DNA of 28,620 nucleotides from IMG/VR virus record IMGVR_UViG_3300046028_007623, positions 1 through 28,620 of that record; one strand, given 5' to 3'. Made by a program: the position numbers and the translations under genes. Source of the DNA: a virus. The notes under the pieces were generated by a model. The model made no database searches, was not told the origin of the DNA, and saw only the letters and a list, made by a program, of their open reading frames with translations. Below, in pieces: positions 1-17,739 of the stretch (position 1 is its first letter; each line of letters opens with the position of its first letter).

Positions 1-3
1 TAG

Positions 4-315
4 GATACTATCGAAACATGTTCGGATATAGGTATGAAGTCACAAATAGCTATGGCTGGTTTATCTATGTTACTAAAAGAATTAAATATTGATTATAAGA
101 TTAAAACAAGGTCTGATAAACAAAACTTTATTTCATTTTCGTTAAAGAATCGTAATCGTGGTAATTCCTCATTCACCGATAAAACTAAAAAGAAATCGTC
201 TGAAGTTTGGAAAAATGAAATAATACTCAATAATGACAAGAATGATTATGTGTATGATATTTCAACAGAAGATGGCACTTTTGTTTGTGGTATTAATGGT
301 ATCATTGCACATAAT
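4..315 (+). other. C-terminal part of a DNA polymerase intein (class 1 type, polymerase motif C site)
   Basis: Self-splicing protein element, excised after translation. The visible part holds the end of a LAGLIDADG-type endonuclease domain (IETCSDIGMKSQ followed by a helix, AGLSMLLKELNIDY). It then holds intein block F (VYDISTEDGTF) and block G (GIIAHN), with Thr as the first extein residue. Block F has Asp at position 4, as in class 1 inteins. The insertion point, directly before TDGF of the polymerase catalytic motif, is the site used by several archaeal DNA polymerase inteins. The first residue and the first half of the endonuclease are outside the window. Confidence 0.85.
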
Positions 316-2166
316 ACTGATGGCTTTAACTTTGCATTTCCATCAAATATTGATGATATTAAGTATGTTGCTAGAGGAACTCATTGGAAAACTATCAATG
401 ATGCTGGTAAAGAATTGATTGGACTGGATGCCGTACTAGCTGAATTCAATGAAAACTATATGGAAGGTCGTATGGGTCTTGATATTGACGATATTTGTCG
501 TTCAACTATTAATTTTGCTCGTAAGAATTACGCAAATGATATAAATGGTAAAATTAAATTGGTCGGTAACTCTATTAAGTCTAAGAAGATGCCTGTTTTT
601 ATTGAGGATTTTCTAGCCAAGGCTATACGTATGTTATTGGATGGTGATGGACAGTCATTTATTAATTATTATTATGAATATGTTGATAAGATATATAATT
701 ATCAAATACCATTGGTTAAGATGGCTAATAAATCTAGGGTTAAGACCACATTATCCGATTATCGTAAAAAAGCTTCAATGAAGAATAAAGCTGGTAATCC
801 TATGCCTAAACAGGCGCATATGGAATTGGCGCTTCTTGATGGTCTAAATATAACACTAGGCGATACGTTATATTATATTAATACTGGTAATTCAAAGGCA
901 CAAGGTGATTTAAAGACCGTTGATAGAAATAAGATGACCAAAAAAGCAAAAGCTGCGTTTTTTGCGGCTAATGGTTTTTATCCACCAGTTGATAAGGTTA
1001 CTGAATTAAACTGTAAATTAATTGACCCAGCTGTTGTTGAGCATGACTTTGAAATCATTAAAGAACTTGAACTACTTAAAAAAGCCCTGCTTGGTCTTAC
1101 TGAAGATTCTGATAATGATGGAAGGGTAAGTATTGAAACTAGGATTGCAGAAATTGAGACAGAATTACATACTGACGAATATAATGTCCCTAAATACTTA
1201 GAGAGCTTTAATAATAAGGTTAAGCCGTTGTTGGTATGCTTTAACCCAGAGGTAAGAAAAAATATATTGTTATCTATAATAAAAACTAAAGATAAACAAA
1301 CAAAGATTGTTACTGAAAAATTAAAAGAACGTACTGTTTACACAAAGCATGAATGTGAATTGGTTTCAGGTGTACCGTTTAATGTTGGTGACCAAGATTC
1401 ATACGCTGACCTTATGCGTATGGAAGATAAAGAGATTAAGTTCTGGGACAAGGTGGATAAGCTACCTAACTATATGTCCCAAGATGAATGGGACGCTATA
1501 AGGGCTGATTACCTTAATAGAATGGCTATATTTAGAGCTGAAAGTATCCAACAAGAAAAATATAGGTTAGATTATTTATTTAGACGCTTGGAAGTCAAAG
1601 AACTTAGTGATGTTACAAACAAGGGTTTGTTGACTGTTGATATCTTTATGATTGCTGATATATCTAATGATGACTTGGGTAATTTAGTTTCTAGAAAATG
1701 GGGTGAGGTTTTAGCACATGTAAATGATATCTTTAAATATGAAGAAGATGCTATAAGACGTAACCATTACTACAATTTAACCAATAATGAAAGTATTGAT
1801 AGGTATGATGCTTGGCTTGATTATACTAATCAACAATTGGTTATGTCTGGTGAAACCATAGAGATAGATTCCGATGAAATAACATTGGTCGATGCAGCTG
1901 TTGTTACTAAATTGCTAAATGAAAAAGCTAATCAAGTTATCAACACAAATAAAATAAAAGAGGTTGTTGAGGAAGAAGATGATGATGCTGAAGATGATGC
2001 TGTAAATGATGCTGAAGATGATGCTGAAAATGATGCTGTACCTAGAGATGAAGAAATGATTATCTTAGAAGATGAGTTTGACGATACATATGCCGAAAGA
2101 CCTGATGACTACGTACCTATTATTGAACCAAAAATAGAAGTTGTTGACGATGGGTGGCCATTTTAA
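4..2166 (+). CDS. Family B DNA polymerase, C-terminal part with the end of an intein (5' partial)
   Basis: Replicative phage DNA polymerase. The frame is open from base 4; an ATG at 34 exists, but protein-like intein sequence precedes it, so this is the tail of a gene that began upstream. Bases up to 315 encode intein (ending AHN). The host protein resumes at 316 with TDGFNFAFP, the second half of the YGDTD(S/G) polymerase motif C, where an Asp normally precedes the T. Downstream are palm and thumb sequence, including TLYYIN and a YLESFNNKVKPLLVCF stretch typical of the polymerase B C-terminus. Residues near the end form an acidic repeat (1981-2040), and the protein ends DDGWPF. In T4 the polymerase C-terminal tail binds the sliding clamp, so a similar role here is a guess. 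A TAG lies in frame at 1-3. The family call is firm; the N-terminus is unseen. Confidence 0.88.
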   Translation, partial: DTIETCSDIGMKSQIAMAGLSMLLKELNIDYKIKTRSDKQNFISFSLKNRNRGNSSFTDKTKKKSSEVWKNEIILNNDKNDYVYDISTEDGTFVCGINGIIAHNTDGFNFAFPSNIDDIKYVARGTHWKTINDAGKELIGLDAVLAEFNENYMEGRMGLDIDDICRSTINFARKNYANDINGKIKLVGNSIKSKKMPVFIEDFLAKAIRMLLDGDGQSFINYYYEYVDKIYNYQIPLVKMANKSRVKTTLSDYRKKASMKNKAGNPMPKQAHMELALLDGLNITLGDTLYYINTGNSKAQGDLKTVDRNKMTKKAKAAFFAANGFYPPVDKVTELNCKLIDPAVVEHDFEIIKELELLKKALLGLTEDSDNDGRVSIETRIAEIETELHTDEYNVPKYLESFNNKVKPLLVCFNPEVRKNILLSIIKTKDKQTKIVTEKLKERTVYTKHECELVSGVPFNVGDQDSYADLMRMEDKEIKFWDKVDKLPNYMSQDEWDAIRADYLNRMAIFRAESIQQEKYRLDYLFRRLEVKELSDVTNKGLLTVDIFMIADISNDDLGNLVSRKWGEVLAHVNDIFKYEEDAIRRNHYYNLTNNESIDRYDAWLDYTNQQLVMSGETIEIDSDEITLVDAAVVTKLLNEKANQVINTNKIKEVVEEEDDDAEDDAVNDAEDDAENDAVPRDEEMIILEDEFDDTYAERPDDYVPIIEPKIEVVDDGWPF
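1981..2040 (+). repeat. Five tandem 12-base repeats encoding an acidic tract
   Basis: Five exact-length units follow the pattern (G/A)AT GAT GCT G(A/T)A and encode DDAE, DDAV, NDAE, DDAE and NDAV. They form an acidic, probably disordered linker between the polymerase body and its last 40 residues. Units differ only at the first codon and at the Glu/Val codon, so copy number could change by slippage without breaking the frame. Confidence 0.9.
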
Positions 2167-2169
2167 ATT

Positions 2170-2195
2170 AAAAGAGGGGAAATTTCCCCTCTTTT
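2170..2195. terminator. Bidirectional terminator between convergent genes
   Basis: A perfect 26-base inverted repeat: AAAAGAGGGGAAA is followed directly by its complement, giving a GC core with A tracts on one side and T tracts on the other. It lies 3 bases after the polymerase stop and 5 bases before the stop of the minus-strand neck-like gene, so it can serve both. Confidence 0.85.
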
Positions 2196-2200
2196 ATATT

Positions 2201-3340
2201 TTAGAATACCCAGAATCCCATTGGTTGGAATTTTAAAGTTCTATTTAGATATTCCGCTTCGTTAGCTGCTCGTTCTAATTGTGCTGTTGTGGATAATCTT
2301 AATAACCTAGCGTCTAAGCGTTCTAGGACGGCTCTACGCTCTTCATTACCCTCACTTAGTAGTGTATCATAGTCCATGGTCCTTTCGGCCTCTGGTGGTC
2401 CTACAATCCCTCCGAATTTACCACGTACTCTACCTAGAGTTCTTTTACCTTCAGCGATAAATAATTGTCTAATCAGAGTCTTGGTTGGTTCATTAAAATC
2501 AGAATAGTCTAACTTTGACAATGGAACTTGGTTAGGCATCTTAATAATATCTGGATTATCCCTTAGACATTCATCAAGATTTTCAGGTATGGTGTCATAA
2601 TAGAAATACCAAACATGGCAACCTGTCATATTAACATTACTACCTAGACCACCTATGCCTTGACCAAAAGAAAACTTAGAGCCTGGTACTGACAGCAAAT
2701 GTAATAATTTAGTACCGTTTGGTCCAGCAGTTATCTTATACACCAACTCACTTCTAACAATTCTATTTTTTAAGTTCATATCAGAAGCGGTTAGTAATAT
2801 ATCAAATGCTGGTGCTATATAGTAACCCCTAGCCCCAAGACCAGAACCACCATTTACACCAGCACCTGTTTGTGCGAAGCCACCACCGAAGCCATAATCA
2901 ATACCACCAAAATTAGCTAATAGGGCTTGACTTGTTGGTGGTGGTGTTATCCATAATACTTCATTTACTTCACGACCAGCTGGAATTTGGTAAACTTGTC
3001 GACCAGCTTCTAGTTCAACGTAGTCTTTCTTTAGTTCCCATGGGCCATTTGTTTGTAGACCAACTTGCTTAGAATAAGCATATGTTGATTGCTGCACATA
3101 ATCTAGAGTTCTAACACTAAGAGCAAATGACATATCGGTTGTTGATATGCTTTGTCCCAATAATGATTGCCATTGATGTTCAATTAACCATTCTTGTACA
3201 TATTGAGCGTAATCTTCTATTGATATCTCAAGTAGTGTACAAAGTTGTTCATCAGTTAATTCAACGGCACGTGTTGGTGCACCGAGTGAGTGCCTAAATT
3301 GCGTAAATAGTTTTTCTCTATCATCTGTACTTACTGGCAT
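2201..3340 (-). CDS. Virion structural protein, possibly neck protein (T4 gp13-like)
   Basis: A 379-residue soluble protein with no signal peptide or membrane segment. The N-terminal 60 residues contain SLGAPTRAVELTDEQL followed by an amphipathic helix ending WLIEHQW. This pattern (LGxP, then x-V-x-L-T-D-E-Q-L) resembles the start of T4 gp13-type neck proteins, which close the head for tail joining. The middle is rich in Gly and Ala (around residues 142-170) and the rest looks beta-rich. It is the only apparent structural gene on the minus strand and has its own TATTTAT promoter motif 15 bases ahead of the ATG, separating it from the glutaredoxin-helicase unit. The structural call rests on promoter class and composition; the gp13 match is from memory of the family pattern and is tentative. 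Confidence 0.5.
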   Translation of the reverse strand: MPVSTDDREKLFTQFRHSLGAPTRAVELTDEQLCTLLEISIEDYAQYVQEWLIEHQWQSLLGQSISTTDMSFALSVRTLDYVQQSTYAYSKQVGLQTNGPWELKKDYVELEAGRQVYQIPAGREVNEVLWITPPPTSQALLANFGGIDYGFGGGFAQTGAGVNGGSGLGARGYYIAPAFDILLTASDMNLKNRIVRSELVYKITAGPNGTKLLHLLSVPGSKFSFGQGIGGLGSNVNMTGCHVWYFYYDTIPENLDECLRDNPDIIKMPNQVPLSKLDYSDFNEPTKTLIRQLFIAEGKRTLGRVRGKFGGIVGPPEAERTMDYDTLLSEGNEERRAVLERLDARLLRLSTTAQLERAANEAEYLNRTLKFQPMGFWVF

Positions 3341-3348
3341 AATTCCTA

Positions 3349-3362
3349 TTTATTTATAAATA
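3349..3362 (-). promoter_or_regulatory. TATTTAT late-promoter motif of the neck-like gene
   Basis: On the minus strand this reads TATTTATAAATAAA, ending 8 bases before the ATG; the TATTTAT core ends 15 bases before it. It matches the motif seen before eight other genes in this window. Confidence 0.6.
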
Positions 3363-3376
3363 TCAATAAAATAGTA

Positions 3377-3631
3377 TTAACCTAATAATTTTTTAATAAT
3401 ATTACCAGCATCTTTAATTGTATTAAAGGATACATTTGGTACCAATAATTGATTACCGACCCTTATAATCGGAACTTGGTCCGACTTAGTTAAGTCATGA
3501 ATCTTATTATACGTAGCCTCATTCTCTGGCAATTCAACATTAACATCAATGTATTCAATACCATTTGACGTTAAAATATCTTTTAATTCTATGCAATACG
3601 GGCATTCAGATATCGTGTATATTGTAACCAT
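3377..3631 (-). CDS. Glutaredoxin
   Basis: An 84-residue thiol-disulfide oxidoreductase. The active site CPYC lies at residues 10-13 after the first beta strand (MVTIYTIS), and the cis-proline loop QVPI is at residues 52-55, followed by the strand IIRVGNQLL. Length and order fit the classic glutaredoxin fold. In T-even phages such proteins (NrdC) reduce ribonucleotide reductase; no reductase gene is visible here, so the partner is unknown. It starts 11 bases after the helicase stop, without its own promoter motif, so it is probably cotranscribed with the helicase as an early gene. Confidence 0.9.
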   Translation of the reverse strand: MVTIYTISECPYCIELKDILTSNGIEYIDVNVELPENEATYNKIHDLTKSDQVPIIRVGNQLLVPNVSFNTIKDAGNIIKKLLG

Positions 3632-3642
3632 TTAATTAGTTT

Positions 3643-6519
3643 TTATTGTTCTGTATTAAGTATGTTATCCATTATTAATTCGGTTTCATTTTTATCTTTT
3701 CTTTCACCTAAGATTGTACTAATAACTAGTTGTTTATTTTTTAGTGTTTCCCACATTCTAGTTGAAATCGTTCCTTCAAATAATTGATAATAAACGTTAA
3801 CATTATTCTTTTGCCCAATTCTAAAACTTCTATCTTCAGCTTGTTCATTATTTCCAGTAACCCAAGAAAATGAATTAAATATTACAACAGTTGCTTCGGT
3901 TAGAGTTATAGCCACACCAGCTGAATCTATGTTACCAATAAATACCTTTACCTTTGGATTATTTTGAAATTCATCCACTGATTTTTGTTTCTGAGTGGTA
4001 GACATTGGGCCATTGTGTTTAACTGATAGCTTGCCAAAGTGTTGTGATAGTATTTCTAATTCTTCAGTAAAGCTTGTAAATATAATCACCTTACGCCCCA
4101 TTTCTATTGCATTTTCAACCATTTCAATAGTATAAGGTATTGCGGCTGCCGCAATAAATTGTCGCAACAGAATTAATTCTACTAAGTCCTTTTGTATGTT
4201 GCCATTCTTTTTACCATCAAGTATACGCTTTACTAGATATTCTTCCCATAACGCATCATATTCTTTTCTAGCCTTGGAGTCTAGACGATAATATGATGGT
4301 GTCACTACCTTATCTGGCATATCTAATACTTCGGTTTTATACCGCCTAAGAATTATGTTTTTAGTCTTGGTGGCCAACTCATCCAAGTTAGAGGCACCAT
4401 CGGTTATCCAAATTTGTTTTTTCTGACCATTCTTGAGTGTTCTATACATCTTTTTAGCGTCACAATACCTAACGGCATAATGTTTCCAATTCTCAGCTAA
4501 TTTAGACTTGATGAGCTTAAGCAAGTTAAAAAAGTCCATTGGTCTATTAGCTACTGGTGTACCAGTAAGTAACCAAACATTTGGGATGCCATGTTTTTCA
4601 ACCAATTCAACCATTATTTTACCTCTGATACTATCATTATTTTTTAGGTAATGCGCCTCATCAACAATAACCAAATCAAAACCAGCATTTGCTAATTCTC
4701 TATTTAATTTCTTTGGTTCTTCACCGTCCTTTGGTTTCTTACCATCGTCTAGTGTATGAAAATTCTTAAGAATATCATAGTTTATGATAGTAAACTTAGC
4801 TTCGGACCATTTTTTACCATCTATTATAGTTGTATCATTACAAAAAACATTTATTTCTCGTTCCCAATTTATCTTAGCTGACGATGGTGATACCACCAAT
4901 ATTTTTTTAGCACCGCTTTCTAATGCCGCAATTATTGACTGTGTTGTGTTATGTGTAACAACATAATCTTTTATAACATATAAATGGTCTTCAGATTCAA
5001 CCATTATACATTGACCAATTGCTCTTCTTGAAAATTCAATAGATTTTATACCTCTTGATGGGTTGTATTTTTTTATTTTTGGTAAACGGTCAATTTTTCT
5101 TTTTAGTTTGAATGGGACTATTTCAGTTGGTAAATTTATAGTTAAAATAAAACATTTTTTACATATTTTAATTGTATTATCTGGTAATTTATATTTACCA
5201 ACCTTACTAGATAATCTGGCAACCCCACCTAATGATTGTACTAATGCTTTAACACCATTAGTTAAATCTTTTGATACGCTATAATATTGTATTGTACCAT
5301 TTTTACTGCAATAACCATCAGTATCTAATAACCCTTGTAATAAATTAAGTCTGTCTTCAATATTACTAAATAAGTAGTTATTTGGTATAAATTTAGTTTC
5401 TGATTTTAAACCCATTAACCCATATTCTTTAAAATATCTAATAATTAAATTAATATTATTATTACCGCATAAATGAAATTGGTTTTCCGCAAAAAGTTTT
5501 AATTTATGTTCTTTTGGTAATCTTTTATTTATTTCATAAATTATACTTGAATCATTTGATGTAAATCTTATATTATGTCCAGAAAAACCACCATCACCCA
5601 ACAAACAACCCATAACATATGGGTCAATATTTAAATTTAATTTTTTAAAATGAACTGGTTTTACTATTGGTAGGTACCATTTAATATTACCTTTGGTACC
5701 GTAAGTTAAATCATTTATAATTTCTTTTAGTTCTTTTATAACAAAACCATTATTTCTTTTTTTGTGGTTTGTTGTTTGTACAGCCCATAAGTGTTCATCA
5801 CAAGATTCTATAACACTACCATCTGTTAATGTTATATTATAAAAATTTTTTTCTGGTTGTGGATAAACACCTAAAATCTTTGTTGGTCTACCGTTAGACC
5901 CAATAACGTAATCACCTATCTTTAAATCACCATTGTTAACCCAACCATGTGGTGTTAATACTGGTGTATCATTCGCCAAAACTTTTCCTAAACCCATATC
6001 GTCAGCTAATATACAGTTTTTTCTTGATAATAAAAACTTAACACCATCTTCTTGGTGTTGATATAGCTTTTTACCAAACTTAGCTAAAACCTCATTATAT
6101 TTAGTAAAATCTACTTCTACTTGGATGTCCTCAAAGTATGGGTCGTCAATCAATTGTGTCTTTGGAATCCAATACATCTTAGATTCCTTTTGATTTTTAG
6201 TTAATTTACCATATATGTGAAAAGATTTATCATTTTCACCTAATATAAACTCAATTAAAATCTTCTCTGGTATAAACGATATGTTATATTGGCGCTGAAG
6301 TTCTTCGCCTAGATATTTTGTTATACCAACAACTCGATTAATGTATTCTGGCTCTCTAGTATTATTCTTTATTATATAGGCTGATTGATTCTCTGTTAAA
6401 GATATTTTTTTATTTTTAATATATTCGTTTTTAAGCTTTAAGATATATGGATTAATACCTTCGTATTTTTCCAATAAATCAATTGCTGAACGGCCTTTTA
6501 AGTCATTTAAATTAATCAA
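3643..6519 (-). CDS. SNF2-type (superfamily 2) DNA helicase/translocase with an intein in its Walker A motif
   Basis: 958 residues as translated, about 613 after splicing. The N-terminal 150 residues are an accessory domain. Motif I is DDMGLGK at 173-179, interrupted by the intein (180-524) and completed by TTQS. Motif II is DEAH (620-623), motif III LLTGTP (650-655) and motif VI QAEDRSFRIGQ (893-903). RIGQ after an ExxR-type stretch is typical of SWI2/SNF2 proteins. This implies ATP-driven movement on duplex DNA, with likely roles in repair, recombination or fork remodelling. No ATG is available: the frame opens after a TAA upstream and TTG at 6519 is the best start, only about 15 bases below a strong host-like promoter. 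Glutaredoxin follows in the same unit. Splicing should be essential, because the intein separates the Walker A Lys and Thr. Confidence 0.93.
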   Translation of the reverse strand: MINLNDLKGRSAIDLLEKYEGINPYILKLKNEYIKNKKISLTENQSAYIIKNNTREPEYINRVVGITKYLGEELQRQYNISFIPEKILIEFILGENDKSFHIYGKLTKNQKESKMYWIPKTQLIDDPYFEDIQVEVDFTKYNEVLAKFGKKLYQHQEDGVKFLLSRKNCILADDMGLGKVLANDTPVLTPHGWVNNGDLKIGDYVIGSNGRPTKILGVYPQPEKNFYNITLTDGSVIESCDEHLWAVQTTNHKKRNNGFVIKELKEIINDLTYGTKGNIKWYLPIVKPVHFKKLNLNIDPYVMGCLLGDGGFSGHNIRFTSNDSSIIYEINKRLPKEHKLKLFAENQFHLCGNNNINLIIRYFKEYGLMGLKSETKFIPNNYLFSNIEDRLNLLQGLLDTDGYCSKNGTIQYYSVSKDLTNGVKALVQSLGGVARLSSKVGKYKLPDNTIKICKKCFILTINLPTEIVPFKLKRKIDRLPKIKKYNPSRGIKSIEFSRRAIGQCIMVESEDHLYVIKDYVVTHNTTQSIIAALESGAKKILVVSPSSAKINWEREINVFCNDTTIIDGKKWSEAKFTIINYDILKNFHTLDDGKKPKDGEEPKKLNRELANAGFDLVIVDEAHYLKNNDSIRGKIMVELVEKHGIPNVWLLTGTPVANRPMDFFNLLKLIKSKLAENWKHYAVRYCDAKKMYRTLKNGQKKQIWITDGASNLDELATKTKNIILRRYKTEVLDMPDKVVTPSYYRLDSKARKEYDALWEEYLVKRILDGKKNGNIQKDLVELILLRQFIAAAAIPYTIEMVENAIEMGRKVIIFTSFTEELEILSQHFGKLSVKHNGPMSTTQKQKSVDEFQNNPKVKVFIGNIDSAGVAITLTEATVVIFNSFSWVTGNNEQAEDRSFRIGQKNNVNVYYQLFEGTISTRMWETLKNKQLVISTILGERKDKNETELIMDNILNTEQ
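4948..5982 (-). other. Class 3-type intein with LAGLIDADG endonuclease (345 residues)
   Basis: The intein runs from Val180 to Asn524 of the helicase. Block A is VLANDTPVLTPHGW, so position 1 is Val, not the Cys, Ser or Ala of class 1 and 2 inteins. Block B reads ESCDEHLWAV, with His at intein residue 64 and Trp at 66. Block F reads GQCIMVESEDHLY, with Cys at 325 where class 1 inteins have Asp. Block G is VVTHN, followed by Thr. Trp, Cys and Thr at these three places are the signature of class 3 inteins, in which the block F Cys attacks the N-terminal junction directly. Two LAGLIDADG motifs, MGCLLGDGG (124-132) and LLQGLLDTDG (214-223), keep their catalytic Asp residues, so homing activity may be intact. 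Confidence 0.9.
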
Positions 6520-16808: not shown

Positions 16809-16839
16809 TTGACTTGTAAGAATTCTTTCAGTATATTTG
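16809..16839 (+). promoter_or_regulatory. Host-like promoter of the homing endonuclease
   Basis: TTG (16809-16811), 20 bases, then TATATTTG (16832-16839) gives a full match to the Bacteroidota -33/-7 pattern. The -7 box lies in the loop of the terminator hairpin at 16821-16857, and the transcript would start about a dozen bases before the ATG at 16858. Confidence 0.65.
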
Positions 16840-16857
16840 CTGAAAGAATTTTTATTT
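16821..16857 (+). terminator. Terminator after the tail tube gene
   Basis: A perfect 11-base stem, AATTCTTTCAG with CTGAAAGAATT, encloses an 8-base loop and is followed by TTTATTT. The next gene starts at the base after it. Confidence 0.8.
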
Positions 16858-17739
16858 ATGGTAAAATGTAAAAAATGTGAAAGAGAGTTTGAAACATTGG
16901 ATTCTCTTAGGAGACATAATAAACAGAAACATGGTGTTGATGCTGAAAAAACCTATATTGAATATGTTTTGGAGGGTGTTGAGCCTACCTGTAAATGTGG
17001 TTGTGGTGAGAAACCTAAATACTTGGGTATTGATGTTGGTTTTAGAGACTTTATTCGTGGTCATGCTGCTAGGGTCAACAATAACTGGGGGCATAATCCA
17101 GAAGCTCTAAAAAAATCACATGAAACGCAAAAAAAGATGCACGATTCTGGAACGTTAAAGGTATGGAATGATGGTTTAACCAAAGAGGATTCTAGGGTTG
17201 CTGAGAACACCAGAAAAACAATGAGTAACCCAGAGCGTGGTAATAATATTTCACAAGCTTTAAGTGGTATACCAAAAAGTGATGAACATAAACTTAAATT
17301 AAGCGAAACTGCTAGTATTAGGTGGTTAAACCAAGATGAACGAGATAAGCAATCAGCAAGATTAATTAGTAGGTTAATAAAAAATAATCATAGGAACAAA
17401 AAAACCAAATTAGAATCTACGTTTGAGGATTTACTGATTGGTTTAGGTTTAATAACTGATATTGATTATAAATATCAAACTCAAGTTGGCTCTGCTATTT
17501 TTGACTTTATAATTTTAAACAAGAAAATACTAATTGAGGTAGATGGTGATTTTCACCATTGTAATCCGAATACAATACATAGGGTACCTAAATATCCAAT
17601 ACAAATAAAGACTGTAGGTAATGATATAAGAAAGAATATTCTAGCTGAAGATAATAATTATATGTTAATTAGATTTTGGGAGAAGGATATTAATGAGAGA
17701 CCAGAATGGGTTATTAAACAATTAAGATTAAAGATTTAA
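16858..17739 (+). CDS. Free-standing homing endonuclease, Vsr-like (EDxHD / PD-(D/E)XK fold)
   Basis: 293 residues from the ATG at 16858; an upstream TTG at 16837 lies inside the terminator loop and is unlikely to be used. A C2H2 zinc finger is at residues 4-25 (C4, C7, H20, H25), then a CKCGCG cluster (45-50) that may bind zinc. A NUMOD3-like DNA-binding motif, SGIPKSDEHKLKLSETA, is at about 136-152. The nuclease domain has FDFIILNKKILIEVDGDFHH (D216, E227, D229, D231, H233, H234), then a KNI-LAEDNNYMLIRFWEKDI segment typical of Vsr/DUF559-like nucleases and of the EDxHD homing endonucleases of phages. It sits between tail genes with its own host-like promoter and is not needed for the tail. 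Likely a selfish element cutting the same site in phages that lack it. Confidence 0.85.
   Translation: MVKCKKCEREFETLDSLRRHNKQKHGVDAEKTYIEYVLEGVEPTCKCGCGEKPKYLGIDVGFRDFIRGHAARVNNNWGHNPEALKKSHETQKKMHDSGTLKVWNDGLTKEDSRVAENTRKTMSNPERGNNISQALSGIPKSDEHKLKLSETASIRWLNQDERDKQSARLISRLIKNNHRNKKTKLESTFEDLLIGLGLITDIDYKYQTQVGSAIFDFIILNKKILIEVDGDFHHCNPNTIHRVPKYPIQIKTVGNDIRKNILAEDNNYMLIRFWEKDINERPEWVIKQLRLKI

Follow-up and report, generated by a model that had tools for sequence, protein, structure and literature searches.

A class 3-type intein with a LAGLIDADG domain at the Walker A site of a phage SNF2 helicase

What kind of intein interrupts the ATP-binding site of a phage helicase, and how might it leave its host protein when its first residue is a valine? 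The window, that is, the whole stretch of DNA analysed here, comprises the 28,620 bases of an IMG/VR virus record and is probably a fragment; tail sheath, tail tube and baseplate-hub genes are present in it, and its source is most likely a contractile-tailed phage. A free-standing ORF resembling HNH or other homing endonucleases (16837-17739, forward strand; PHROG 9084, 1.3e-9) is flanked by the genes for tail tube and baseplate hub. The interrupted protein matches SNF2-rel_dom (5e-29), Helicase_C (2.5e-12) and a PHROG DNA helicase family (3e-107). Its gene contains the following features, all on the reverse strand.

3643..6519, reverse strand: precursor of an SNF2-family DNA helicase, 958 codons in all, of which 179 for the N-extein, 345 for the intein and 434 for the C-extein
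4948..5982, reverse strand: very probable class 3 intein with a LAGLIDADG homing endonuclease domain, between the Walker A Lys and Thr (from residues, alignments, empty allele and model)
5980..5982, reverse strand: codon GTT of Val1 (A:1), first intein residue and residue 180 of the ORF; same residue in the related loci L035, L005, L011, L019 and L036
5785..5793, reverse strand: block B His64-Leu65-Trp66 (B:10 to B:12); His64 in 206/206 and Trp66 in 191/206 relatives
5593..5595, reverse strand: Asp130, first LAGLIDADG acidic residue (LLGDG, block C), in 192/206 relatives; profile aligned with PI-SceI
5317..5319, reverse strand: Asp222, second LAGLIDADG acidic residue (LLDTDG, block E), in 204/206 relatives; profile aligned with PI-SceI
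5008..5010, reverse strand: Cys325 (F:4), proposed first nucleophile
4948..4956, reverse strand: Thr343-His344-Asn345 (G:5 to G:7)
4945..4947, reverse strand: Thr+1 of the C-extein, proposed second nucleophile and also the Walker A Thr

Read from 5982 to 4948, the insert translates into 345 amino acids, stop-free and in frame inside the ORF 6519..3643. At the N-terminal junction, ...DDMGLGK is followed by Val-Leu-Ala-Asn of the intein, which ends in ...YVVTHN ahead of the C-extein TTQSIIAALESG (its start is also given as TTQSII); the Walker A motif is thereby laid out as DMGLGK/V...THN/T. Helicase relatives were gathered with the C-extein alone as query, and among the best 80 taken, 61 have no intein detectable using the window intein as query and 19 have one. 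The nearest of them, L319-L322, which are mutually identical in their extein DNA, share 92.7% of the N-extein and 97.2% of the C-extein residues with the window and carry no insert: their site reads DMGLGK/TNQAIIGALESG (beginning DMGLGK/TNQ). The Lys and Thr codons are therefore separated by an insertion of precisely 1,035 bp. Because hundreds of inteins are homologous to the insert over its full length and its 345 codons are precisely what is absent from the empty allele L320, chance or artefact can be rejected as its origin. Translation and empty allele thus bear out the initial annotation in placing an intein at 4948-5982, inside Walker A of an SNF2 helicase encoded by a phage.

The extein DNA of the window is 91.2% identical to that of the empty allele, and the 80 nt downstream of the insertion hold 16 differences between the two, the maximum along the gene (mean 7.2; Fisher p 0.0017, uncorrected for the choice of stretch). 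At the sites that differ within this stretch, the intein-bearing L035 agrees with the window in 10 cases and with the empty allele in 2, compared with a ratio of 31:43 elsewhere. This one-sided patch of divergence, set against a single donor-like relative, is suggestive of co-conversion during homing from an L035-like donor.

The residues of the insert place it in class 3, defined here by the triplet Trp B:12, Cys F:4 and Thr G:5 (PMC3196547, PMC7891396) and by a residue 1 other than the nucleophiles Cys, Ser or Thr. The window intein has the full triplet in Trp66, Cys325 and Thr343, and its residue 1 is Val, where class 1 inteins have Cys, Ser or Thr. Across 14 aligned inteins there is no variation at His64, Trp66, Cys325, Thr343, His344 or Asn345, and among 206 distinct related inteins the triplet reads WCT in 186, FCT in 11 and WCS in 4. 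Translation confirmed the positions that had been assigned to His64, Trp66, Cys325, His344 and Asn345, and Cys325 falls at block F position 4, as had been claimed, in all 202 rows that cover this position. The triplet itself stands with one correction: Trp66 and Cys325 were rightly named as members, and the third, previously taken to be Thr+1, is Thr343 (G:5) by the published definitions. In a tree of 177 rows, all of class 3 type apart from a single outgroup of class 1 type, the window intein groups with seven phage SNF2 inteins with a support of 100 (quick SH-aLRT), and residue 1 in the resulting eight-row clade is Ala, Met or Val.

The predicted fold agrees with this assignment. An AlphaFold model of the intein without its exteins, based on 46 aligned sequences, combines a Hint with a LAGLIDADG fold (mean pLDDT 96.1, pTM 0.93). 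Among structure matches restricted to the splicing domain, the class 3 DnaB inteins 6bs8, 6riy and 6rix of Mycobacterium smegmatis and M. chimaera rank highest (Z 19-20), the Hint domain superposing on 6bs8 over 123 residues with an rmsd of 1.5 (Z 19.8). Over its full length, the model matches PI-SceI, the Sce VMA intein (Z 26.9 over 333 residues). PI-SceI, a class 1 intein, shares with the window intein the combined splicing and LAGLIDADG architecture, both LAGLIDADG acids being aligned, but resides in a different host gene and is 17% identical. The intein also matches LAGLIDADG_3 (PF14528, 2.4e-9), and Asp130 and Asp222 are both present, so that the LAGLIDADG motifs retain their acidic residues as originally described. 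In a survey of 1,701 class 3 inteins, 82.5% had LAGLIDADG motifs (PMC7891396), and the endonuclease domain of the window intein is therefore typical.

Residues, alignments, the empty allele and the fold model together give good support to a class 3 intein inserted in Walker A, and the other readings have to be weighed against them. A valine at position 1 would equally suit a class 2-type intein, in which residue 1 is likewise non-nucleophilic and Thr+1 would attack the N-terminal splice bond directly. Class 2 inteins, however, are known from KlbA only and carry Asp at F:4, Ala1, Ser at G:6 and Cys+1 (PMC4031507, PMC3196547), whereas the window has Cys at F:4, His at G:6 and Thr+1, and the nearest splicing-domain structures are of class 3; we regard a class 2 intein as exceedingly unlikely. 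As the window is an IMG/VR virus contig, Val1 might instead be a misread Cys, Ser or Ala codon of a class 1 intein, the probability of which is close to nil: Val1 recurs in L005, L035, L011, L019 and L036, contigs from other datasets, and in the more distant phages Kwan and HM1, and the window has Cys F:4 and Thr G:5, unlike the motif VI intein of L035, which is of class 1 type and described below.

A degenerate intein that blocks the helicase, comparable to the class 3 pseudogene Arth_1007 of Arthrobacter, is very unlikely too. Nothing specific favours it, and in the literature we found no report of a bench-tested class 3 intein with Val1, that of the window included. The known pseudogene has lost His B:10 and Cys F:4 (PMC3196547), but every catalytic residue is present in the window, the reading frame is uninterrupted, the helicase domains are preserved and a Val1 intein persists in L035 at 76% identity. 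Hence, the insert is very probably a LAGLIDADG-bearing class 3 intein that splits Walker A at GK/T in a phage-encoded SNF2 helicase, and it presumably splices via Cys325.

For this class 3 intein, a splicing route can be proposed from the biochemistry of the class (PMC5222942, PMC4031507, PMC7664689). Cys325 at F:4, aided by His64 and Thr343, would attack the Lys179-Val1 peptide bond, whereupon the N-extein would be held on Cys325 as a thioester, the block F branched intermediate. Thr+1 would then accept the N-extein to form the block G branched intermediate, cyclisation of Asn345 would free the intein, and an O-to-N acyl shift would rebuild the Walker A sequence GKT and, with it, a working ATPase. 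The intein would spread by homing, its endonuclease domain cutting Walker A codons that lack an insert. The initial annotation had forecast that splicing would tolerate changes at Val1; that the identity of this residue is not required is plausible, but not assured. In the class 3 AceL NrdHF intein, the A1G substitution abolished splicing (PMC7891396).

Neither of the two features that had been singled out as unusual, the valine and the SNF2 host, sets this intein apart from its relatives. A tblastn search recovered related inteins from 778 phage records, with identities of 42% and below, 739 of which span 80% or more of the query. Only two loci came from scanning viral_contigs with a single protein, and an alignment and a Walker A pattern were used in its stead. 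An SNF2-like Walker A motif precedes 66 of 186 non-redundant relatives, a share biased upward by two scans that targeted DMGLGK followed by Val or Ala codons. Class 3-type inteins also follow DMGLGK in Hymenobacter genomes, and the Snf2 intein of Deinococcus radiodurans was, by the account of Brace 2010 given in PMC3196547, among the first class 3 inteins proven to splice. The D. radiodurans precedent and the 66 relatives rule out an unusual host. Residue 1 of the relatives is mostly Ala, with Val, Phe, Gly, Ser, Asp, Glu, Met, Leu and Cys also occurring (the same two scans having raised the Val and Ala counts), and seven other full-length inteins among those examined begin with Val, namely those of L005, L011, L019, L035 and L036, which belong to the lineage of the window, and those of phages Kwan and HM1. 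An unusual Val1 is thereby ruled out as well; residue 1 is weakly constrained.

Two further groups illustrate the variety at the N-terminus. Inteins that follow DDMGLGK or DEMGLGK and start with Cys were seen in L078 (1498-2601), L081 (148-1257), L092 (1498-2607) and L340; those of L078, L081 and L092 have Cys F:4 and THN, and the tree puts L078 and the L081/L092 pair into separate subclades among relatives that start with Ala or Leu. Going by this placement, Cys1 may have returned on more than one occasion among class 3-type inteins. In L105, L108, L113 and L147, Pro1 inteins follow PRG in another protein (PNIDLLGPRG/PLAVS.../SAKST), have Ser in place of Thr at G:5 and end in SHN, SKN or SSN before Ser+1.

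Comparison with known systems locates the window intein within its class. The D. radiodurans Snf2 intein, compared here by its description, is likewise of class 3 and in an SNF2-family helicase, and its block F branched intermediate has been detected by experiment (Brace et al. 2010, as related in PMC3196547 and PMC4031507), but its host is cellular. Also comparable are class 3-type inteins of phages, such as those of the Erwinia phage Kwan gp48 helicase, Pseudoalteromonas phage HM1, the PhiPA3 gp233 SNF2 helicase and the uncultured phage LR756508, which follow the Lys of Walker A or of a comparable GK and share with the window the WCT triplet (nearly all of them), the THN/T end and the LAGLIDADG domain. 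They are 33-42% identical to it, reside in various helicases and other proteins and mostly start with Ala, those of Kwan and HM1 having Val1 as in the window. The mycobacterial DnaB-1 inteins (6bs8, 6rix/6riy) resemble it in Hint fold, class and insertion after GK, the point being GK/S in M. smegmatis (PMC5222942), but are mini-inteins without an endonuclease domain, reside in DnaB and are 27-28% identical over the aligned residues.

This helicase family contains other inteins as well. At the same Walker A site, L323, L334, L340, L356-L359, L370, L393, L395 and L398 carry a different class 3-type intein, about 39-41% identical to that of the window, in helicases that are 71-81% identical; intein-free alleles with equally similar exteins exist in L392, L394 and L396. 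These data support the view that the Walker A site of this phage SNF2 family is a hotspot occupied by two or more distinct lineages of class 3-type inteins. The SNF2 protein of L035 (IMGVR_UViG_3300025789_000026, 1-5223) contains two whole inteins, one of class 3 type in Walker A, with Val1 as in the window, and a second, of class 1 type, in motif VI (EQAEDR/CIFGG...NVHN/CYRIG), with Cys1, Leu at B:12, Asp at F:4 and Val at G:5. L081 and L102 likewise have two inteins, the motif VI one running off the end of the locus; L230, of which only the motif VI intein was examined, has one of class 1 type there (HN/C). A redox-sensitive splicing switch has been proposed for the mycobacterial DnaB-1 intein (PMC6195587). 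By analogy, Cys-initiated splicing of the ATP-binding site could make the activation of the helicase in infected cells sensitive to redox state, a speculation that we consider unlikely to hold.

Taken as a whole, the intein of the window is a clear but ordinary addition to a well-known and widespread class, and the known scheme is unchanged. The intein-free allele of the same phage gene, 91% identical at the DNA level, makes a good natural control. Across the wider set of relatives, residue 1 of class 3-type inteins is nearly free, as expected if Cys F:4 alone initiates the reaction.
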